Source of the DNA: a virus
IMG/VR virus record: IMGVR_UViG_3300001213_000217
Span: 1-21,609 of that record
Direction: 5' to 3' (one strand)
Length of the DNA: 21,609 nt
A program made the translations under genes and the position numbers. Within the stretch, counting starts at the first letter, position 1; every line of letters starts with the position of its first letter. The notes beneath the pieces were generated by a model. The model ran no database searches, was not told the origin of the DNA, and was given only the letters and a program-made list of their open reading frames with translations. Shown here one piece after another: positions 6,569 through 21,609 of the stretch.

Positions 6569-6769
6569 ATGCCTCAGTACAGAGTCGTCAGGGACTTCAC
6601 GATTGACCCGTTCACGTTCAAGGTGGGCGAGGCCGTCGCGGAGGCCGAACTCTCCCTATTCAAGCAGGAACTCGTAGGGTCCGGATGCGTCGTGCCAGTC
6701 GAAGACGTGCCGCCGGCCGCGCCCGTGACGCCCGTGGTGGCAGCGAAGCCGACCAAGGCGCCCAAGTGA
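6569..6769 (+). CDS. Small hypothetical protein downstream of the capsid gene
   Basis: This 66-aa protein is not assigned to a family. The first half (MPQYRVVRDFTI, FTFKVGEAVAEAEL) looks like a short beta unit of the kind often found in tiny proteins next to phage capsid genes; the second half is a Pro/Ala/Val-rich tail ending in KPTKAPK. AGGAG stands just before the ATG. Its stop overlaps the GTG start of the lipoprotein (GTGA at 6766-6769), so the two are probably translationally coupled. It could be a minor head component or an accessory to the lysis cassette; I see no evidence to decide. Confidence 0.65.
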   Translation: MPQYRVVRDFTIDPFTFKVGEAVAEAELSLFKQELVGSGCVVPVEDVPPAAPVTPVVAAKPTKAPK

Positions 6770-7104
6770 CTCGGTCCGCTCTGTACGCCGCCGTCTTGAT
6801 CGTCCTCGTGCTGGCCGCGCTGGGCGCCGGGTGCGACAAGGCGACGCCTACAGAGCCGGTGCCGGTGCCGACACCGACGCCCACGGCGACACCGACGCGA
6901 GACGCGTGTGTGCCGAACGAGCCGCCCTTCGGTTGTATTTGGGGTTGCCCGTGCAGCTACACGCCGACTCCGACTCCGACGCCGCTCGTGACGTGGACGC
7001 CGACGCCGACACCGCCTCCGGTTTTCACCCCGACCCCGACACCGACCAAGACCCCGACCCCAACGCCAACCGCACCTTGCCCTCCTGGTCCCGGCGGGTG
7101 CTGA
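6766..7104 (+). CDS. Pro/Thr-rich lipoprotein, candidate outer-membrane spanin
   Basis: From GTG 6766, which overlaps the previous stop, this encodes 112 aa. It has a short basic start (TR), a hydrophobic segment ALYAAVLIVLVLAALGAG and a lipobox-like cysteine at residue 23. The rest is dominated by Pro-Thr repeats, with a Cys-rich island at residues 48-63 (C48, C57, C61, C63) and two more cysteines at 105 and 112. Small proline-rich lipoproteins next to holin and endopeptidase genes are typical o-spanins (lambda Rz1), which help fuse inner and outer membranes at lysis. The position -3 residue is Gly rather than Leu, a weak point. It is longer and more cysteine-rich than Rz1, and could instead be a surface lipoprotein of lysogens. 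Confidence 0.7.
   Translation: MTRSALYAAVLIVLVLAALGAGCDKATPTEPVPVPTPTPTATPTRDACVPNEPPFGCIWGCPCSYTPTPTPTPLVTWTPTPTPPPVFTPTPTPTKTPTPTPTAPCPPGPGGC
6856..7074 (+). repeat. Low-complexity Pro-Thr coding repeats in the lipoprotein
   Basis: Imperfect six-base units of the CCGACG/CCGACA type repeat in three blocks and encode runs of Pro-Thr. The blocks are separated by the Cys-rich island and a short aromatic spacer (LVTWTP, PPPVFTP). Such repeats readily change in copy number. Confidence 0.75.
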
Positions 7105-7114
7105 GAAGAACGCC

Positions 7115-7261
7115 ATGAGCTTCACAGACGCGATCAAGGGCATCGTCGGCGCCGCGAGTGCGGTCGCATTCTTCTGGTACTTCGTCCGTCCGTGGATTCC
7201 GCCCCTGTACGCGCGCTACAGCGAATGGGTCAAGACCACGGCCTCGGGGAAGAAGTCGTGA
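7115..7261 (+). CDS. 48-aa single-TM peptide in the lysis cassette
   Basis: ATG 7115 opens a 48-aa reading frame: MSFTDAIKGIVG, a hydrophobic stretch (AASAVAFFWYFV, about residues 8-24), then RPWIPPLYARYSEW and a basic end (GKKS). It follows a weak GAAGAA-type ribosome site and its stop overlaps the holin GTG (7258) as GTGA. One membrane segment with a basic C-terminal tail in a holin operon suggests an accessory holin, antiholin or other lysis-timing peptide. No family is recognised. Confidence 0.65.
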   Translation: MSFTDAIKGIVGAASAVAFFWYFVRPWIPPLYARYSEWVKTTASGKKS

Positions 7262-7698
7262 ACTGGCTCGAGGAAGTGTTTAAGGGCGGCGTGTCCGGTC
7301 TGCTCGCGCCTATCGCGGACATCATCGCGAAGTTCAAGGCCGACCCGACCATCATGGCGCAGAACGGCCAGAAGGTCATCGAGCTTGAGTACGCTGCAAA
7401 ACAGGTGCAGTTGCAAGCCGAACTGCAGCTACAGCTTGCCCAGGCCAAGATCAACGAGGTCGAGGCCGCGAGTCCGGACAAGTTCAAGTCGTGGGCGCGC
7501 CCGGCTGCGCTGTGGGTCTGCGTCGTCGGCTTCGCGTACGCGAACCTCGGCTACCCGCTCCTAGGGTGGCTGTCGATCAACATGGGGTGGAAGCCGCCCC
7601 TCGAGTTGAACACCAACGCTCTCGACACGATGCTCGCCGCGCTTCTCGGCGTCGGCGCGTACCGCTCGTTCGACAAGTGGAAAGGCAGCAGCAAGTGA
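7258..7698 (+). CDS. Holin of the 3-TM type (GTA holin-like)
   Basis: This 146-aa protein from GTG 7258 has an N-terminal amphipathic region, a Gln/Ala/Glu-rich helix (VIELEYAAKQVQLQAELQLQ) and a hydrophobic C-terminal half: ARPAALWVCVVGFAYANLGY, YPLLGWLSINMGW and TMLAALLGVGAYRSFDKWKG. The RP start of the first membrane segment and the ending LLGVGAYRSFDKWKG fit the 3-TM holins known from gene transfer agents and many phages (PF11351 type). Holins oligomerise in the inner membrane and open it at a set time, releasing the endolysin. Overlap with both neighbours (GTGA at each end) indicates one coupled lysis operon. Confidence 0.85.
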   Translation: MNWLEEVFKGGVSGLLAPIADIIAKFKADPTIMAQNGQKVIELEYAAKQVQLQAELQLQLAQAKINEVEAASPDKFKSWARPAALWVCVVGFAYANLGYPLLGWLSINMGWKPPLELNTNALDTMLAALLGVGAYRSFDKWKGSSK

Positions 7699-7970: not shown

Positions 7971-8354
7971 ATGCCGTCGCGCGATCTGAACGACTGCGAA
8001 CCGCAACTGGCCGACGCGTTCCGCGCGATCAAGGTGGACTACGAACAGAACAACCCCGGCTGCGTGCTGCAACCTTTCGTGACGTATCGGTCCCCATCCG
8101 AACAACAGGCCGAATACGCCAAGGGTCGCACGATGCCGGGCAGCATCGTCACCAACAAGGACGGGGTCACGAACCTGTCGAAGCACAACTACAAACCGTC
8201 ACGCGCGATCGACGTAATGGTCGTGATCGACGGCAAGGCGCGCTGGAACCCAGGTCTCTACATCCCGCTCGGGCCGCTAGCCGACAAGCACGGACTCCGC
8301 TGGGGCGGACGCTGGCAGAAACCCGCTGACTTCGTTCACTTGGAGATTGCCTGA
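7971..8354 (+). CDS. Endolysin, M15-type L,D/D,D-peptidase
   Basis: This 127-aa single-domain enzyme cuts peptidoglycan peptide stems at the end of infection. The zinc site of the M15/VanY family is readable: SKHNYKPSRAID supplies H72 and D81, and ADFVHLEI supplies H123. The substrate-side motif TYRSPSEQQAEYAKGR near 38-53 also matches M15 peptidases of phage origin. The usual G in SxHxxGxAxD is replaced here (KPSR), a mild deviation. There is no signal peptide, so release by the holin is expected. ATG directly follows the previous TAA, and the stop overlaps the next start as TGATG. Confidence 0.9.
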   Translation: MPSRDLNDCEPQLADAFRAIKVDYEQNNPGCVLQPFVTYRSPSEQQAEYAKGRTMPGSIVTNKDGVTNLSKHNYKPSRAIDVMVVIDGKARWNPGLYIPLGPLADKHGLRWGGRWQKPADFVHLEIA

Positions 8355-11877: not shown

Positions 11878-14800
11878 GTGTCCACGTTCCGCACCGAAAT
11901 CGAGATCGGCTGCAACCCGAACCCTGCGGTCTCGGGCATCCAGCAGATTCTCTCTGAGGTTCAGAAGCTGCGCTCTGACTTGGCGTCGCTCTCCACGAAC
12001 GTCTCGAAAGTTTCGAGCGACATGGAGAAGACTGCCGCGTCGGCCAAGAAAGCGCAGGGCGACATCGAGGGACTCGCGAACTCGATTCGGACAGCCGCAG
12101 CCGCGCTCGGCCTGATGTGGGCCGCGAACAAGGCGTTCGACTTCATCAAGGACGGCTTGATGGCGGCGTGGCAGGCTGGCTCCGAGTTCAACCAGATCAT
12201 GGAAGTCGGGCGCATCGGCATGGCCGCGATGTTCACGACTCTCCGCACCTACACGGACGAACACGGGCGCGCCGTCGAGGGCGAGCGCGCCTTTGCCGCG
12301 GCGATGCAGGACTCCTACCGAGTGCAGGAGCTCATGCAGAGCGCCGTCTTCAAGACGAACACGACGCTGCAGGAACTGCAGGGCACGTTCTCGCGCATCC
12401 AGATGGGCGCCGCGTCGCAGAAGGCGACGACTGAGGAGATGGTCCGCCTGACCGTCGCCGTCACGAACATGGCGACGGCGACCGGGCGCAGCCCTGAGGC
12501 GCTGTCCCAGCAGCTTTCGCTGATGATGAACGGCATCGTGCGCGCGCAGGGCGCGATGGGCGGCTTCATCAAGTCCCTCGGCCTCTCGACGGAGGAGGTC
12601 AAGAAGCTCGCGGCGAGCGGCGACCTCCTGCACGTCATGTTGCAGAAGATGGACCAGTTCGAACGCGCTGGCGGAATGATCCAGCAGTCCTACCAGGGCG
12701 TCATGTCCAACGTCAAGGACGTGTGGCAGCAACTGTCCGGAGCGTTCGCGCAGCCCCTGATGGATCAGGCGAAGATCCTCGGCACGAAGTTCATCGAGAC
12801 GTTCACCGAGACGTGGGTGGACGCGCAGGGCAACACGCAGACGCGCGTGTCCGATTGGGGCAAGACGATCGCGCAGAACTTCGGCAGCGGCTTCAAGGAC
12901 GGTCTGATGATGATCCTTGAGACCGTCATGCCGAAGTTCGACAACCTGTCGTCCTTCGCCGCCAACTTCGCGACGGCCATGCGCGAGATCCGCGATAGCT
13001 GGCGCGACCGCAACGTGGACACGAAGGATCCCGGTCGGTCCGGACTGATCGCGCACCTCGAGGAGCGCGCGTCGATCACGGGCTTCAACCTTGACGACGC
13101 CGTCCAGCGCGAGGCGGATGGTCGGCGCGCGGAGCAACTGAAGGCCGGCGCAGACCTCACCTCCGCAGAGCGCGCGCTCGCGAACCAGTACCTCGCGGAG
13201 TACCAGCAGCGCGAGGAGTCGCAGCGGTCGTTCAAGGACCGCATGACGATCGTCCAGCGGTACGGCGTCACGCCTGAGATGCTGATCGGTAACGGCGCTG
13301 GTCCCGGCGACGCGATGTCGAAGCCGACGCCGCGCGCCATCGAACCCGCGATGGTGCGGTTCGCTGAGGGCTTCAAGGACTTCAAGAAGCTCTTCTCCGA
13401 GAAGATGGAACTCGGCGGACTCGAGGGCGTCGAGAAGCAGTTCCAGCAGATCGACATCCAGCTTCAGAACAACATCAAGACCCTCGACGGCTGGGAACAC
13501 AAGCTGCAGGGCAAGACCCCTGAGGAGCTCGCGGCGCAGGGCATCTTCAAGACGCGCGACAGCAAGGGCAACCTCTCGTACACGGGCCAACTCAAGGACG
13601 AGGCTGAAGAGAACGCCATCCGCGCCAAGATCCTGCTGGAGGACCAGCGACAGGAGAAGCTGCGCGAGGGCATGCTGCGCCTGACCGAACTCACGAAGCA
13701 GACGCTCGCGGAGCAGATCAGCGCGGAGGAGGCGGCCGGCGAGCGCAAGATCGCGGTCGCCGCACGCACCGCAACCGCACAGACGCGCACGCTGGAGGAA
13801 CTCCACGCCGTGTGGGAGGCGGAGGCGAAGGCGAAGGAGGCGCTGTTCAACACGACAGACCTCAAGCGCGCCGCTGCCGAGTTCGAAGCGTCCGGCGAGT
13901 GGGACAAGCTCGTCGCGGTCGTCGCGGCCCAGGGGCGCGACGCCGGTCAGGGATTCACGGAGTCGTTCGTCGCCGCGTTCGGCGTCGCCGCCGAGAAGGC
14001 GTACGCGAAGGCCGACGACATGGCGTCCGGCGTCGCCGCTGGCCTCCAGAAGATCCGTGCGACGTACAAGACCGAAGGCAAGATCATCGCGGACACGATG
14101 AGCGAGGTGTGGGGCCAGATTGGCGACACCTTCGCGAACGTCGTGAGCGGCTCCATCACCAACGGCATCGAGGGCATCAAGGGCGCGTTCAAGGGTCTCG
14201 TCAACTCGCTGCTGAACGACTGGGTCAAGATGATCAAGGACATGGCGATGAGCGCCGCGTCCCTCAGCGTCGGCAGCGGCGGCGGCGTTGCGTCCGGGTT
14301 CGGGAGCCTGATTCGCGGGTTCGCCGGCGAGAAACCCGAACGCTACCTCTACGCCGGGATGGACGAGGGCGGCGATCCGACGTGGGGCAACAACCCGAAC
14401 TTCGGGATGCAGACCGCCGGCTACGTTGGCGGAAGCGCGCTCAAGGGGTACGGCGTCGGCGGCGCGATCGGCGGGATGTCTGGCGCGCCCGGCTGGAACT
14501 CTGGCGCGACGATCGGCGGCGCTGTCGCGTCTGCCGGTATCGCTCTGGCCGCGTCCGGCGCGCTCGGCGCGGCTGCGGCTGGCGCTGTCGCTGGCTCCGT
14601 GATCCCGGTCCTCGGCACGATCATCGGCGCCGTCATCGGCGGCATCATCGGCATCCTGTCATCTCCGAACACCGAGATGAAGTCCTATCAGGTCGGCAAG
14701 TACTCACAGGCCGCCCAGGTGTCCGGTCAGGCGATGAGTACGTTCTCCGGGTCGATGCTCGATCTCTACGGCACGTCCGCGTCCGCGGGGCGCGACGTGT

Positions 14801-16695
14801 TCGCGCAGAGCATGTCAGACATCATCAAGGGCTACATGCAGAAGCTCTCGTTCAAGATCCACGCCGGATCGAACGAAGACCTCCAGAAGGATTTCGAGCA
14901 ACTCACCAAGGGCATCATCCCCGCCGAGATCCTGCACCAGATGTTCGGGCAGGGGCGGCGCGGCGGCAAGGACTACGCGGGCATCGACGGCGGGTCCAGC
15001 TACACGGACATGGTCGCGACCGACGCCGGCCCGCTGACGAAGTGGATGAAGGAGATCGGGTTCTCGATCGAGAAGATCAACGAGATCACCGGACAGATCG
15101 ACCAGCGAGGCGCTGAGGCGTTTCAGCAGTACCTCGTCAAGCTCGTCGGCGTCGTCATCAGCTTCAACAACAACATCAAGAATCTGAGCAAGACGAGCGG
15201 CGAGCTCTTTGCCGACGCGTCGAAGTCGAGCGACCAGAATGCCATCGAGGCGTTCCACGAGTCTGCCGTCGCGCTGACGGAACAGGCGAAGGAACTCTCG
15301 CAGTACTCGGGCGACGATCAGATCGCTCGCGCGCAGAAGCTCAACGACGCCGTCGCCGCGCGCTACCAGCAGGAACTGCAGTTCATCCAGCAGATCATCC
15401 AGACGATCAAGAGCGAGAGCGCCGCGTTCCTGTCGCTTCGCATGACGCTGGGCGACGCTACGGCGCGCTCGCGGATGACTAGCCAGCAGTACGACGCCTA
15501 CCGGGTGGACGACTGGAAGACGCGCATCTACGGCAAGGAGATGCAGTCGGCTGGTGACCTCCCGATCTTCGGCTACCGCCAGCAGATTATGAACACGCAG
15601 GATCCTGCGACGGTAATCGAACTCGCGGCCAAGGCGCGCGACGCGATCAAGCAGTACTTCGACTACCTCAACAACCTCCTGTCACAGAACCTCCAGCTTC
15701 TCTCCGGGTTCAAGGATCTCAAGGCGAACTTCGGCGCCGGGAGCGCGGGCCTCATCGGCGCCGCGATGCCCGACACGTCGCTGCAGGGTTGGCTCGCCGG
15801 CGTCGGCACGCTCAAGACCCAGGTCACGGACGCGGCGAAACTGACCGGTCAGGCGCAGATCGACGCGATGAAGAAGGTGCAGCAGACGGCTGCGGAGCGT
15901 TATCAGCAGGAGCTCGGCTTCATCCGCGACATCAAGAGCAACCTCGCGAGCTTCAAGGCGTCCATCGCCGGGTTCAAAGAGAACATCAAGATGGACGGGA
16001 TGAATGACCAGGAGAAGGCGACCTACCTCGCGTCCAAGCTGAGGGACGACGAGGAGAAGATGCGGACCTCCAAGGATCCCGCCGAGATCAAGCGGCTGCA
16101 GGACGAGATCATGCAGTACGCGCAGCAGTACTACGGCCTCTTCAAGGAGGGCGACCCGCGCCGCGCGGAGGCCGGGCGCTATATCAGCGACGTGCTGGAT
16201 CGCGCTGCAGCCATCGCGGAGGCGAAGTCCAACGAACTGATCGACATCATCACGGAGGCGTCGAACTCGTACGCCCAGGTCATGCAGGACGCGGCGGACA
16301 CGACGCAGGAGACCATCGACACGATCAACGCGGAGATCGGTCGCCTCAACGTCGAACTCGGCAACCTCGAGACGGCGGTCCGGACGAAGCTCAAGGGAGT
16401 CGTGGACACGCTCGTGGCCGACAACACGCGGCTCGCCGCCGAACTCGCGAAGGACGCCGACCTCTTCACGAAGACCAACGCGCAACTCACGAACCTCACG
16501 GACCCGACGAGCGGCACGCTCAAGCGGACCGGCGATGCGTTCGACGGCCTCAGCGCCAAGGCGCGCGCCCTCGGGGCGGCATTCGACACCATCCTTGGGG
16601 CCGGCGGCTCTGGCGGCAACAGCACCAGCGTCGGCGCACAGGCCTACAACTCGAGGACGTACTCGTACGCCTTCTCGCCCGCAACGGGGGTCTAA
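11878..16695 (+). CDS. Tail tape measure protein
   Basis: At 1605 aa this is by far the longest gene, in the usual place after the chaperone. It sets tail length and leaves the tail during DNA ejection. The N-terminal 100 residues form coiled coil (VQKLRSDLASLSTNVSKVSS), followed by a tape-measure N-terminal-like domain (LQELQGTFSRIQMGAASQKA, SQQLSLMMNGIVRAQGAMGG). Then come long charged helices (500-750), a Gly/Ala-rich hydrophobic segment (about 850-931: GAAAAGAVAGSVIPVLGTII, GAVIGGIIGIL) that could cross a membrane, and more helices with an internal duplication (from 1162 and 1341). No peptidase or muramidase motif is visible. GTG 11878 is preceded by GAGG six bases away. By the usual rule of about 0.15 nm per residue the tail would be around 240 nm. 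Confidence 0.94.
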   Translation: MSTFRTEIEIGCNPNPAVSGIQQILSEVQKLRSDLASLSTNVSKVSSDMEKTAASAKKAQGDIEGLANSIRTAAAALGLMWAANKAFDFIKDGLMAAWQAGSEFNQIMEVGRIGMAAMFTTLRTYTDEHGRAVEGERAFAAAMQDSYRVQELMQSAVFKTNTTLQELQGTFSRIQMGAASQKATTEEMVRLTVAVTNMATATGRSPEALSQQLSLMMNGIVRAQGAMGGFIKSLGLSTEEVKKLAASGDLLHVMLQKMDQFERAGGMIQQSYQGVMSNVKDVWQQLSGAFAQPLMDQAKILGTKFIETFTETWVDAQGNTQTRVSDWGKTIAQNFGSGFKDGLMMILETVMPKFDNLSSFAANFATAMREIRDSWRDRNVDTKDPGRSGLIAHLEERASITGFNLDDAVQREADGRRAEQLKAGADLTSAERALANQYLAEYQQREESQRSFKDRMTIVQRYGVTPEMLIGNGAGPGDAMSKPTPRAIEPAMVRFAEGFKDFKKLFSEKMELGGLEGVEKQFQQIDIQLQNNIKTLDGWEHKLQGKTPEELAAQGIFKTRDSKGNLSYTGQLKDEAEENAIRAKILLEDQRQEKLREGMLRLTELTKQTLAEQISAEEAAGERKIAVAARTATAQTRTLEELHAVWEAEAKAKEALFNTTDLKRAAAEFEASGEWDKLVAVVAAQGRDAGQGFTESFVAAFGVAAEKAYAKADDMASGVAAGLQKIRATYKTEGKIIADTMSEVWGQIGDTFANVVSGSITNGIEGIKGAFKGLVNSLLNDWVKMIKDMAMSAASLSVGSGGGVASGFGSLIRGFAGEKPERYLYAGMDEGGDPTWGNNPNFGMQTAGYVGGSALKGYGVGGAIGGMSGAPGWNSGATIGGAVASAGIALAASGALGAAAAGAVAGSVIPVLGTIIGAVIGGIIGILSSPNTEMKSYQVGKYSQAAQVSGQAMSTFSGSMLDLYGTSASAGRDVFAQSMSDIIKGYMQKLSFKIHAGSNEDLQKDFEQLTKGIIPAEILHQMFGQGRRGGKDYAGIDGGSSYTDMVATDAGPLTKWMKEIGFSIEKINEITGQIDQRGAEAFQQYLVKLVGVVISFNNNIKNLSKTSGELFADASKSSDQNAIEAFHESAVALTEQAKELSQYSGDDQIARAQKLNDAVAARYQQELQFIQQIIQTIKSESAAFLSLRMTLGDATARSRMTSQQYDAYRVDDWKTRIYGKEMQSAGDLPIFGYRQQIMNTQDPATVIELAAKARDAIKQYFDYLNNLLSQNLQLLSGFKDLKANFGAGSAGLIGAAMPDTSLQGWLAGVGTLKTQVTDAAKLTGQAQIDAMKKVQQTAAERYQQELGFIRDIKSNLASFKASIAGFKENIKMDGMNDQEKATYLASKLRDDEEKMRTSKDPAEIKRLQDEIMQYAQQYYGLFKEGDPRRAEAGRYISDVLDRAAAIAEAKSNELIDIITEASNSYAQVMQDAADTTQETIDTINAEIGRLNVELGNLETAVRTKLKGVVDTLVADNTRLAAELAKDADLFTKTNAQLTNLTDPTSGTLKRTGDAFDGLSAKARALGAAFDTILGAGGSGGNSTSVGAQAYNSRTYSYAFSPATGV
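15361..16161 (+). repeat. Internal duplication in the tape measure protein
   Basis: Two related segments start at residue 1162 (nt 15361) and residue 1341 (nt 15898), 179 residues apart. Shared landmarks are QIxxxxKxxxxxAxRYQQELxFI at the start and a DPA motif (D1242 and D1400) before a helix ending in QY-Y/F. The second copy is about 21 residues shorter between landmarks. The repeat is at protein level; the DNA has diverged. Confidence 0.55.
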
Positions 16696-17600: not shown

Positions 17601-18191
17601 ATGGCAAATTTCCCGAACATCGCACCCAGCGAATCGTACACGCCCGCCCTCGAGAACTTCACGTTCATCGCGGACGGCTACCCCAGCGGCGTGCAGCTTG
17701 CGCGGGCCGGACGCCTGTATCAGGTCTACGCGTGTTCGATGCGGTACGACAACATCTCGTACACGTCGCTCCAGACGCTGTGGGACTTCCATCGCTCCAT
17801 GCGCGGGCGACTCACGACCTTCACGTTCACGGACTGGGCCGGATGGGACGCGACGCCGACCGGGATCGCGTGGCCGAAGCTGTACATCGGAACCACGGAC
17901 GGCGTCACGACCGGGTTCGACGTGCCGATGAAGTCGTCGTCCAGCTACACGCTGTACCGCGCCGGATCCGCGTTGACGCCCGTGACGGACTACTCCTTCG
18001 GTTCGGGGACCGGCGTGGACGGGCGCGACAAGATCACGCTGGTATCTGCAGGGGCGTCCGGCGACCTCCTCGAGTGGGTCGCGACAGGGCGCGCGGCGTT
18101 CAACGTCCGCTTCGGGAGCGACAAGTTCCCGATGACGTTCATGTCCAACGGCGTCGCGTCGTGCGCGCTTGACGTGATTGAAGCCCGCTAA
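17601..18191 (+). CDS. DUF2460-like tail tip protein
   Basis: This 196-aa protein has the DUF2460 signature: an early beta part (LENFTFIADGYPSGVQLARA), then YTSLQTLWDFHRSMRGRLTT followed by FTFTDWAGWD, where family members have a 'F..ar.Gr..gFrf.Dw.D' motif. DUF2460 proteins are tip components in gene transfer agents and related siphoviral tails (GTA gp12 group). A C-terminal part with DLLEWVATGRAAFNVRFGSD and FPMTFMSNGVASCALDVIEA matches the remaining family pattern. GGAGA precedes the ATG. In gene transfer agents DUF2460 comes before the BR0599/DUF2163 gene; here the order is reversed. Confidence 0.8.
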   Translation: MANFPNIAPSESYTPALENFTFIADGYPSGVQLARAGRLYQVYACSMRYDNISYTSLQTLWDFHRSMRGRLTTFTFTDWAGWDATPTGIAWPKLYIGTTDGVTTGFDVPMKSSSSYTLYRAGSALTPVTDYSFGSGTGVDGRDKITLVSAGASGDLLEWVATGRAAFNVRFGSDKFPMTFMSNGVASCALDVIEAR

Positions 18192-20476
18192 TGGAATCGT
18201 TCGAAGTCCCGTTCGACCCAAACCAAAACGGACTCGTCGTCCGGAGAGACTGGAACTACTTCGATCCGAACGCGTGGCCGTTCCCGTGGCCCCCGCCTAC
18301 GCCGACGCCTGGCAACACGAACGCCGGCGCTGGCGACCGTGGCGGCGCGGTCAACGCCGCGCTGCCCGGCACGGTCATTCCCGTCATCTACGGAAGGCAG
18401 CGCGTCAAGGGGCAACTCCTCTTCGCTGACGCGTGGAGTACGAGCGCCCAGGCTGACTTCTGGTACTCCATCGGTGAGGGTCCGATCAACTCGGTCGAGG
18501 ACTCGTGGGCGAACGATGCGCGCCTCACGACGAACCCGTACATCACGGTCACCCTTCACAACGGCGACAAGGCGCAGTCGCAGGACTCCACCTTCAACAC
18601 GCGCAGCACGAACATCTCGAGGCTTCCCCGCACGGCGTACGCGCGCGTGTCGGCTGTGGATCCGCGCTCGCTGAACCCGGACTGGCACAACGTCTTCCCC
18701 GGCGGTGAGAGCTACATCAGCGAGGTCTATTTCGAGGTCAAGGGACTCAAGGTCTACGACCCGCGCCTCGACTCGACCGTCACGGGCGGCAGCGGTTCGC
18801 AGCGCGCGAACGACCCGACGACCTGGGCGTGGTCTGACAACCCCGTTCTCTGCATCCGCGACTTCCTGTGCGACCCCGTACACGGCTGCGGACTCGGGCA
18901 CTCGTCCGGCTACGTCAACGACGTGAACATCATCGCCGCCGCGAACGCGTGCGACACCCTCGGGTTCACGCTCAACATCGCGCTCACCTCGGAAGGCGAC
19001 GCCACCTCGTGGCTCGACCAGATGCGCCTCGTGTGCAACGCGACCGTCTACGTCGATAACGGGCAGTACTGCATCTTCATCGACCAGACGCAGTCGTCGG
19101 TCGTCGTGGACTTCACGACGCTCGGCTCTGGCGCGAACTGCCGCCAAGTGAATTACATCCCGGTCTCACAGCGCGACCAACCCACGCGCGTGATCGTGGA
19201 GTACCCGCACGCCTCCCACAAGTACGCGCAGGACACGGTCACTTGCGACAACCCCGGCATCGCGCTCGGGACTGTCCAGGTGCGCGAGGCTCGCTACAAG
19301 GCGGACGGGATCGTCACGGAAGCGCAAGCGTGGAAGATCGGGACGTACATCGTCAACAAGGCGACCTACCCGCTGCGCGTGGACTTCCTCGCGTCGTTCG
19401 TCTCGCACAAGCTGACCGTCGGCTCGCTGATTACGCTCACGACCGACGAGGGGCTGGCCGCGCAGAAGTTCGTAGTGGACGCCATCGAGGAGCAGGACGG
19501 CGTTGGCGAGGTCAAGGTCACGGCCCGCATCTACTTTGACGACATCTTCTCGTCCACGATCGTCACCGGCGACACGGCCCCCTCTACCTCGATTCCCGAC
19601 GCCAACGGGACGCCGCCGGACATCACGCTCGTGGGCGTCTCTCCGACCAGCACGACGCCGTCCTCGCTGCCGAACACGACAGCCCGCAAGATCGTCGTGA
19701 CGACGAACACGGCGACGCAGTCAACCAAGACCGAGTACGTCGCCGTCGATTACACGCCCCCGACGACGTTCCCGTGGGCACACGAGCTCGTGATCCGCTG
19801 GGACTCGTCTATCGGGTTCGCGACCGCAACCTGGGCTTCGATGTCAGCGAACGAGCTCGTGATCCCGCTCTCTGGCAACACGGATCCGTGGAACGAGGGC
19901 GGCGCGACGTTCTGGTTGCCGGGCCTGATTGGCGAGATCACCACGAACTTATTCGCTGCCAACGGCGAGGTGATCGGCGGCACGCTGTCGGGCGGGCAGT
20001 TCCGCATCATCGCCCGCGTGAGGTCGATCGCCGGCAACCTCTCGTCAGGGGTGACGATCGACTGCCTCGGATACATGTCTTCCACGGCTGCAGCCGACGG
20101 CGGCGCTGAGGTCAAGACGCGCCCGCTGATCCTAGTCGAGGACACCCTGCCCGCCGTAAGCGCCGCCGGCGAGGCCAACATCGTCATGGACTCCGCGACG
20201 CACACGGTCAAGATCAGCGTGAACGGCGGCGCGTACGCCGCCCTCGGCGGAGGTGGTGGCGGCGGCACGCCGACCCGCATCTACGGCGGCAGCGGCATCA
20301 CCGGCTCGATCAACGACTCAAACACGACGTTCACGACCTCCGTGAACGCATCGGTCGCAACCTTCTTCCTCGTCATCGTTGACGGCGTCATCGACTTCGC
20401 GGCGACGTGGTCCGGCACCACGCTGACGCCGAGTAGCGCGCCTCACGCTGGCATCGACGTTCTGTACTGGAGCTAA
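18191..20476 (+). CDS. Tail tip / hub protein, lambda J-like
   Basis: This 761-aa protein is the central tip protein. After a Pro-rich N-terminus (WPFPWPPPTPTPG, 29-41) come VIPVIYGRQRVKGQLLFAD (62-80) and NPVLCIRDFLCDPVHGCGL (217-235), both familiar from J/TipJ-type hub proteins. From about 460 on the sequence becomes Thr/Ser-rich beta modules, ending in a seven-glycine linker (686-692) and a 68-residue C-terminal beta domain (RIYGGSGITGSINDSN ... GIDVLYWS) that may contact a fibre or receptor. ATG overlaps the previous stop (TAATG). It is shorter than lambda J (over 1100 aa). The protein is relatively cysteine-rich between 221 and 352. Confidence 0.87.
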   Translation: MESFEVPFDPNQNGLVVRRDWNYFDPNAWPFPWPPPTPTPGNTNAGAGDRGGAVNAALPGTVIPVIYGRQRVKGQLLFADAWSTSAQADFWYSIGEGPINSVEDSWANDARLTTNPYITVTLHNGDKAQSQDSTFNTRSTNISRLPRTAYARVSAVDPRSLNPDWHNVFPGGESYISEVYFEVKGLKVYDPRLDSTVTGGSGSQRANDPTTWAWSDNPVLCIRDFLCDPVHGCGLGHSSGYVNDVNIIAAANACDTLGFTLNIALTSEGDATSWLDQMRLVCNATVYVDNGQYCIFIDQTQSSVVVDFTTLGSGANCRQVNYIPVSQRDQPTRVIVEYPHASHKYAQDTVTCDNPGIALGTVQVREARYKADGIVTEAQAWKIGTYIVNKATYPLRVDFLASFVSHKLTVGSLITLTTDEGLAAQKFVVDAIEEQDGVGEVKVTARIYFDDIFSSTIVTGDTAPSTSIPDANGTPPDITLVGVSPTSTTPSSLPNTTARKIVVTTNTATQSTKTEYVAVDYTPPTTFPWAHELVIRWDSSIGFATATWASMSANELVIPLSGNTDPWNEGGATFWLPGLIGEITTNLFAANGEVIGGTLSGGQFRIIARVRSIAGNLSSGVTIDCLGYMSSTAAADGGAEVKTRPLILVEDTLPAVSAAGEANIVMDSATHTVKISVNGGAYAALGGGGGGGTPTRIYGGSGITGSINDSNTTFTTSVNASVATFFLVIVDGVIDFAATWSGTTLTPSSAPHAGIDVLYWS

Positions 20477-20479
20477 TAC

Positions 20480-21609
20480 ATGAAGCGTCTGCTCTTGCTG
20501 GTTGCGCTGCTCGCGACGCCCGCGTACGCGCAGGAGAAGTTCAACCTCTTCAACCGCGCCGTCGCGCCGGGCTGCACGACCGGCGACCTCGTCTACGTCA
20601 CCTCGACGCCGACGCTCGGCTGCGGGTCCGTCCTGACCGCGATCGGCAACGGGTACGTCAAGCTGCAGGGGTCGTACCCCGGAACGCAGCAGACCGGCAG
20701 CTTCAACGTCAGCGGCGCGTCCGGCTCTGGCACGTTCACGACGACGGCGATCTCTGGCGGCGGTTCATCGACGTACAACTCCATGAACATTTTCGACAAC
20801 GGTTCGTCGGCCCCAACCGACTACTACACGACGACCATCGGAAAGTCAGGATCCACCGCCGACCAACTGTTTATCTGGCACCGCGTTCCGTCGGCGGTAG
20901 GCGGTCAAGCGTCAACGTGGGGATTCAACCGCGCCGACAAGCTCAAGTCGTCCGGCTTCATCCTCATGCAAGTGAACTCGTCGCTCTACACGACCGGGTG
21001 CTTCGCTACCGACCGCAGCGCCTTTGACGGCTACGCCTCCCATTGTGAGGCGGCGTCTGGCGTCGGCACCGTCCTAGCGGCTGGTGAAACCGGCAGCAGC
21101 TTCGGGTTCGGCGTGGACAACAGCGGCGACCTCTCGCGCATTAAGGGCGTGACCTACGCGTGGCCGTCATCGAACCCCGGCAGCGCGGCGTGCCTCCGCA
21201 ACAGCAGCGGCACCCTGTCATGGGACACGTCGTGCGGGAGCGGCGGGACCGGGGGCGTATCGAGCGTCGGGCTTTCGCTGCCGTCGATCTTCACCGTTAG
21301 CGGCTCGCCCGTAACCAGCACCGGCACGCTGACGGGCACGCTCGCAACGCAGACTGCGAACTACGTCTTCGCTGGGCCGACGACGGGTGCGGCGGCAGGG
21401 CCGACATTCCGTGCGCTGGTCTCTGCGGACATCCCGAACAACGCCGCGAACACGACCGGTTATGCCGCCGCCCTCAAGAGCGCAACGACGACCGTGGATG
21501 TCGGATCGGCAACCGCGCCAAGCTCGGGCCAGGTGCTGACGGCGACAAGCTCCACGACCGCGACGTGGCAGAACCCGGCGTCCAACCCGACGACCACGAA
21601 GGGCGACCT
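20480..21609 (+). CDS. Tail-fibre-like protein with Sec signal peptide (partial, 3' end missing)
   Basis: The reading frame from ATG 20480, three bases after the J-like stop, stays open to the right edge (376 codons seen). It starts MKRLLLLVALLATPAYAQE, a textbook Sec signal: K2/R3, hydrophobic 4-12, and an AYA/Q cleavage site after residue 17. The mature part is Gly/Ser/Thr-rich beta sequence with cysteines at 32, 48 and several later positions. From residue 260 it carries GVSSVGLSLPSIFTVSGS ... FAGPTTGAAAGPTFRALVSADIP-type sequence, and from 349 SGQVLTATSSTTATW ... PTTTKGD, both common fibre-shaft repeats in phages. It is therefore placed as a tail fibre by content and position, yet fibres are normally cytoplasmic. 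No clear Shine-Dalgarno is visible, so coupling to the J-like gene is likely. Confidence 0.85.
   Translation, partial: MKRLLLLVALLATPAYAQEKFNLFNRAVAPGCTTGDLVYVTSTPTLGCGSVLTAIGNGYVKLQGSYPGTQQTGSFNVSGASGSGTFTTTAISGGGSSTYNSMNIFDNGSSAPTDYYTTTIGKSGSTADQLFIWHRVPSAVGGQASTWGFNRADKLKSSGFILMQVNSSLYTTGCFATDRSAFDGYASHCEAASGVGTVLAAGETGSSFGFGVDNSGDLSRIKGVTYAWPSSNPGSAACLRNSSGTLSWDTSCGSGGTGGVSSVGLSLPSIFTVSGSPVTSTGTLTGTLATQTANYVFAGPTTGAAAGPTFRALVSADIPNNAANTTGYAAALKSATTTVDVGSATAPSSGQVLTATSSTTATWQNPASNPTTTKGD

Follow-up and report, generated by a model that had tools for sequence, protein, structure and literature searches.

Signal peptides on phage tail fibre genes suggest that some viruses may export their fibres for maturation outside the cytoplasm

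Introduction

Why should the tail fibre gene of a phage begin with a signal for export from the cell? The tail fibres of a phage determine its host range, and their folding and assembly are assumed to take place in the cytoplasm. The last gene of the viral DNA stretch analysed here encodes a fibre-like protein with the N-terminus of a Sec preprotein. A sequence-only reading of this locus had judged an export signal to be out of place on a fibre, rightly so for textbook phages, and had offered three explanations: a secreted decoy, an N-terminal anchor that is never cleaved, or the captured start of a host secreted protein. The comparisons reported below point to an option absent from those three, a fibre that is exported and ends up on the virion.

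Results

Gene context of the fibre ORF

The window, that is, the whole stretch of DNA analysed, is a complete linear IMG/VR-type record (G000) of 21,609 bp, with the fibre ORF open at its 3' end. From left to right it encodes a terminase, a portal, capsid genes, a holin and an endolysin, a tape measure protein (11878..16695, plus strand; phrog_167), a DUF2460 tail protein (17601..18191, plus strand; PF09343), a lambda-J-like central tail fibre or tip attachment protein (18191..20476, plus strand; phrog_31 and phrog_5616) and, directly downstream, the fibre ORF. This gene order reads as a siphovirus-like late region. A position in the late module after the tail-tip genes (J-like, DUF2460 and tape measure upstream) is typical of a Caudoviricetes tail fibre. 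The J-like gene ends with a TAA codon at 20474-20476, 3 nt before the fibre ATG, and a Shine-Dalgarno sequence, GGAG, lies 7 nt before this ATG (20469..20472, plus strand). The TAA codon is in frame with the fibre ATG, from which only one codon, TAC, separates it, such that readthrough would yield an in-frame fusion (20474-20480).

The window portal gave matches of 23-33% only, in cultured phages, Acidobacteriota and Bacteroidota alike (24-31% in the two bacterial phyla), and scans with the J-like and DUF2460 proteins singly returned no relatives. The scan with the large terminase subunit identified two contigs from other metagenomes (L070, 100% identical, and L071, 84% identical), neither of which spans the fibre region. 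A Pro/Thr-rich protein with a lipoprotein-like leader (VLVLAALGAGC) is encoded at 6766-7104 (plus strand), adjoining the holin (7192-7698) and the endolysin (7971-8354). It is a candidate Rz1-type outer spanin, a prediction that would imply a diderm host.

The leader, cysteines and shaft of the window fibre

The fibre ORF, P0001, runs for 376 aa from an ATG start without reaching a stop before the end of the record (20480..21607, plus strand). Its first 17 residues, MKRLLLLVALLATPAYA (20480..20530, plus strand), have the features of a Sec/signal peptidase I leader, with a charged n-region, a hydrophobic core and an AxA motif; the leader ends in AYA, with Q18 at position +1. The Sec signal peptide noticed in the sequence-only reading was confirmed by a home-made, rule-based caller (not SignalP), which finds 17 of 20 E. 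coli control signal peptides. P0001 scored 5.84 with this caller, against a maximum of 5.53 for the controls, and the predicted cut falls after A17, such that the incomplete mature fibre (20531..21607, plus strand) would begin QEKFNLF. There is no lipobox cysteine at +1 of P0001, the residue there being Q18, which does not fit a signal peptidase II lipoprotein. The caller was also triggered by 16% of shuffles of residues 2-30; amino-acid composition thus accounts for much of the signal, and the comparative evidence weighs more. The first further in-frame Met is residue 102, so a leaderless later start is unavailable, and homologues do not all start at a later, leaderless Met: many retain the leader.

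The mature part of P0001 contains six cysteines, arranged as three close pairs: C32/C48 (CTTGDLVYVTSTPTLGC; 20573..20623), C174/C189 (20999..21046) and C238/C252 (21191..21235), all on the plus strand. Together with the class statistics given below, these pairs indicate adaptation to an oxidising compartment. Residues 252-350 (21233..21529, plus strand) form a shaft module common to phage fibres with and without signal peptides (hereafter referred to as SP+ and SP- fibres). The fibre shaft recognised in the sequence-only reading was borne out by a match to phrog_9625, a family of unknown function (E=4e-14), and by parts of residues 238-332, which are 75-88% identical to fibre ORFs on other viral contigs; several of these ORFs begin as ordinary fibres do, with no leader. 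Comparison with PHROG and Pfam profiles identified no N-terminal virion-anchor domain in P0001, and PF03906 was not found. No cultured-phage matches were obtained for P0001, for the N-terminus of the L098 spike or for the L088 fibre. A single-sequence structure prediction for P0001 (pLDDT 33) was not used. We would assign the window fibre to the SP+ class on the basis of its leader, three close cysteine pairs, shaft and gene position, all features of the sequence.

Recurrence of signal peptides on fibre genes

When viral contigs were scanned with P0001, 55 loci were found to share its shaft. Signal peptides were found on about 15 distinct viral-contig loci of this set, most of the others starting with ordinary leaderless fibre N-termini. 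The SP+ shaft genes adjoin portal, terminase, baseplate, head-closure or tail genes of several morphotypes, and SP+ relatives of the fibre were found on podo-, sipho- and myovirus-like contigs. Across related phage contigs, the caller fired on 22 of 63 fibre genes, versus 22 of 520 non-fibre genes, an enrichment inflated by the choice of some of these contigs for their SP+ fibres.

SP+ fibre-like genes also occur in runs on whole contigs, with three in G013, five in G017, four in G307 and five in G371; the G307 run includes a 2,030-aa pectate-lyase-type spike with a signal peptide. An SP+ fibre of 938 aa in G371 matches 363 cultured phage records, many annotated as tail fibre, and all five of the cultured homologues sampled lack a signal peptide. 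Leaderless fibres are present alongside SP+ genes in G371, G010 and the isolated phage Tunturi 4, and none was seen in contigs G007 and G013. Domains of secreted enzymes (CHB_HEX_C_1, Fn3_assoc and Big_2) are present among the SP+ genes. Small proteins of 113-149 aa, most with signal peptides, lie within fibre runs (L098 6436-7233; L283 18687-19474) and are possible fibre chaperones or export partners. One SP+ fibre (L046 4746-7346) has a GDSL/SGNH-like esterase motif (YGDSIT ... DxxH, recognised by eye), like some phage tailspikes.

The shaft is also found in cells: chromosomal proteins of Acidobacteriota and Bacteroidota with the same shaft as P0001 carry signal peptides too. The cellular Bacteroidota proteins (L057-L066; 750-1,826 aa), with shaft module and signal peptide, are nearly cysteine-free.

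A virion-anchor domain behind the leader in a T7-like clade

Contig G013 is T7-like by its portal, capsid and tail tubular proteins A and B, and its SP+ genes occupy the position of gp17, the T7 tail fibre. A scan with tail tubular protein B yielded 68 relatives of this contig. About 15 distinct relatives reaching the gp17 position have a signal peptide on the fibre, and one (L216) does not. In most SP+ fibres of this T7-like soil clade, a conserved domain of about 115 aa lies directly behind the signal peptide. This domain is homologous to residues 1-119 of leaderless fibres from cultured Pelagibacter, Klebsiella, Alteromonas and Vibrio phages, which are annotated as tail fibre or tailspike and the coding sequences of which begin at the domain itself. 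The copy in Klebsiella phage BUCT711 is PF03906, the T7 fibre N-terminal domain.

A Pfam search of the SP+ fibres gave no direct match to PF03906, and they are linked to this family by way of their cultured homologues, a profile match in the PDB and a comparison of folds. The domain profile matched residues 5-123 of the Dpo36/Dpo31 spike (E=4.5e-4). The predicted structure of the domain (pLDDT 83) had as its best PDB matches the N-termini of virion-bound fibres (LME-1, Carin1, HRP29, P-SCSP1u, Kp7 and T7 gp17), and its best BFVD matches were N-termini of viral tail fibres. The TM-scores of these matches were moderate (0.4-0.6) and the rmsd values large, with the leading matches consistently to this one domain.

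The three residues before the domain conform to [AVSG]xA in 17 of 20 cases, with A at -1 in 18 of 20, the boundary being defined by the domain and not by the signal peptide caller. The predicted signal peptidase motif thus falls exactly at the start of the anchor domain, and cleavage there would restore the N-terminus of the leaderless phages. In many T7-like members, a conserved protein of about 420 aa and unknown function (M.EYSTKSVAVVDNG.FSELA) is encoded directly before the SP+ fibre (L085 15279-16571; L088 15129-16385; L156 16159-17409, and others).

Coupling between the leader and cysteines

We compared 49 distinct copies of the domain. Both conserved cysteines were present in 20 of the 21 SP+ copies (the remaining copy had one), whereas neither was found in any of the 28 SP- copies; this 21:28 table does not represent 49 independent events, because the SP+ copies of the clade stem from one gain. 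The domain tree requires one gain and one loss of the signal peptide. In the tail tubular B tree (rows L166 and L187, being out of frame, disregarded), L216 was sister to an SP+ phage with strong support (100/99). L216 is nested within the SP+ clade in both trees and has neither feature, which indicates that the leader and the cysteine pair were lost together.

The same tendency was observed in a broader collection of fibre-like viral proteins, with redundancy removed, in which cysteine content was 1.68% for SP+ and 0.33% for SP- proteins (p=4e-9), and even cysteine counts were found in 23 of 28 SP+ proteins (p=5e-4) versus 19 of 51 SP- proteins. A regular expression for a cysteine hairpin gave matches too rare to be of use. 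The cysteine pattern of the SP+ fibres is that predicted for proteins folding in an oxidising compartment, and would not be predicted for an anchor retained in the cytoplasm.

Signal peptides in phages isolated on an acidobacterium

Five phages isolated on the acidobacterium Tunturiibacter were described in 2025 (PMC11924767), in a paper the main text of which does not contain the term signal peptide. In the deposited genome of Tunturi 1, we found signal peptides on gp12, gp13 (tail fibre), gp14 (tail spike), gp16 and gp17 (virion structural), and in Tunturi 2 on gp13 (tail fibre), gp14 (pectin lyase), gp16 and gp17, gp12 having been examined in Tunturi 1 only. These product names are depositors' predictions for which PHROG support is weak or absent. 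The large SP+ proteins of the two phages have 10-34 cysteines, and the structural region of Tunturi 1 revealed no further large fibre candidate. As both are infectious isolates, the only large fibre or spike candidates of which in the structural region carry signal peptides, these proteins very likely reach the virions.

In Tunturi 4, signal peptides are present on gp113 (tail protein) and gp114 (virion structural protein), and the annotated tail fibre, gp111, has none. The fibres of Tunturi 3, and the tail-fibre genes in the one stretch of Tunturi 5 examined, have no leader and few cysteines. It is the Tunturi isolates and contigs from acidobacterial bins, and not the window, that link the trait with acidobacteria; G307 and G371, from such bins, may be phage contigs binned there and were excluded as proof of host. 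The trait is not universal in phages of Acidobacteriota, leaderless fibres being found in P2-like elements of acidobacterial genomes and in Tunturi 3.

Discussion

A proposed extracytoplasmic route

We consider that the product of the window gene is probably a receptor-binding tail fibre synthesised as a Sec preprotein, which would be exported, cut and disulfide-bonded in the periplasm, and would dock at lysis. The leader would send the late-expressed fibre through the Sec translocon during late infection, signal peptidase I would cut it after A17, and the mature fibre would trimerise and form its disulfides in the periplasm. Virions, built in the cytoplasm, would meet the fibre only once lysis mixes the compartments, and docking on the tail of the finished virion would take place at or after this point. 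In vitro, T4 fibres and P22 spikes will attach to particles that are already complete. More generally, we lean slightly towards the view that such a route evolved in tailed phages infecting acidobacteria and other bacteria of soil, with Sec export, cleavage at the anchor domain, periplasmic disulfides and docking at lysis. That SP+ fibres are exported, cleaved, oxidised and docked after lysis is what we infer from the leader, its repeated occurrence on fibre genes of many other soil phages, the anchor-domain junction in relatives, the coupling with cysteines and the presence of signal peptides on fibre and spike genes of isolates.

The main rival to an exported virion fibre is that the SP+ proteins are exported yet never form part of the virion, acting instead as phage-encoded secreted depolymerases, adhesins or receptor-masking proteins, produced along with the late gene products and containing domains borrowed from fibres. 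We regard this as unlikely, but as deserving serious weight: the leader and cysteine signature, the consecutive SP+ genes (small ones included), the domains known from secreted enzymes too and the leaderless fibres encoded by some SP+ phages would all be expected of such proteins. A T7-type virion-anchor domain directly behind the signal peptide and a gp17 position across the T7-like clade would not, and the infectious isolates Tunturi 1 and 2 have signal peptides on their large fibre and spike candidates; nor was a leaderless fibre seen in the G007 and G013 contigs. The decoy of the sequence-only reading therefore keeps its place as the main rival, with the anchor domain, the gene position and the isolated phages pointing instead to an exported fibre ending on the virion. 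The anchor domain weakens the rival for the T7-like clade, whereas for the window fibre, in which no anchor domain was recognised, the rival keeps its weight.

Two further explanations fare worse. Attachment sites are found at fibre N-termini in known phages, and the leader might accordingly be a retained hydrophobic segment fixing the fibre to the tail rather than an export signal. This is improbable, because the T7-like relatives have a separate attachment domain behind the leader, at which their leaderless relatives begin, an AxA motif stands exactly at the junction and the leader covaries with the cysteine pair. It is harder still to believe that a bacterial secreted gene was fused or misassembled onto phage DNA, making the window protein uninformative about phage fibres: the fibre ORF follows the J-like gene at a distance of 3 nt and has a ribosome-binding site of its own, and the pattern recurs in many independent contigs and in complete isolate genomes. 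Secreted proteins containing this shaft module are indeed encoded on chromosomes of Acidobacteriota and Bacteroidota, and a captured host start is possible as the origin of the leader, but not as the full explanation. An exported virion fibre thus remains our preferred reading.

To our knowledge, fibre export and maturation outside the cytoplasm before fitting to the particle have not been described, and a literature search of open-licence papers found no report of signal peptides on tailed-phage tail fibres. Phage DGR proteins have been stated to lack signal peptides (PMC6199706). Our results suggest that some viruses export their fibres, which mature outside the cytoplasm before being fitted to the particle. 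If so, phage particles would be finished outside the cytoplasm, tail fibres could be stabilised by disulfides and co-infecting phages could share fibres at lysis. Sec, signal peptidase and Dsb would then be host factors for infectivity, and host-range prediction would have to allow for fibre export. The isolated Tunturi phages provide a system in which fibre export is testable now.

Comparison with known systems

Exported proteins are known in tailed phages, among them the Rz1-type spanin lipoproteins and lambda Lom and Bor. The T4 RI antiholin has a cleavable signal peptide (PMC8385771). These proteins use the host Sec system as the SP+ fibres would, but they are lysis or lysogenic-conversion factors. 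The coat proteins pIII and pVIII of filamentous phages are virion proteins with cleavable signal peptides; unlike SP+ tail fibres, they are placed in the inner membrane and assemble as the particle is extruded, with neither a tail nor lysis involved. The closest parallel for the T7-like soil clade is provided by the gp17-type fibres (T7 gp17, Dpo36/Carin1, Klebsiella BUCT711 and Pelagibacter HTVC010P), with which it shares the PF03906 anchor and the gene position; the known members begin at the domain, whereas the soil clade has a Sec signal peptide ahead of it and a cysteine pair inside it. The window phage differs from both in being siphovirus-like, with no PF03906-like domain in P0001. Its fibre resembles the annotated tail fibre, spike, tail and virion structural proteins of Tunturi 1, 2 and 4 in having a signal peptide and in being cysteine-rich, although there is no close sequence match between them.
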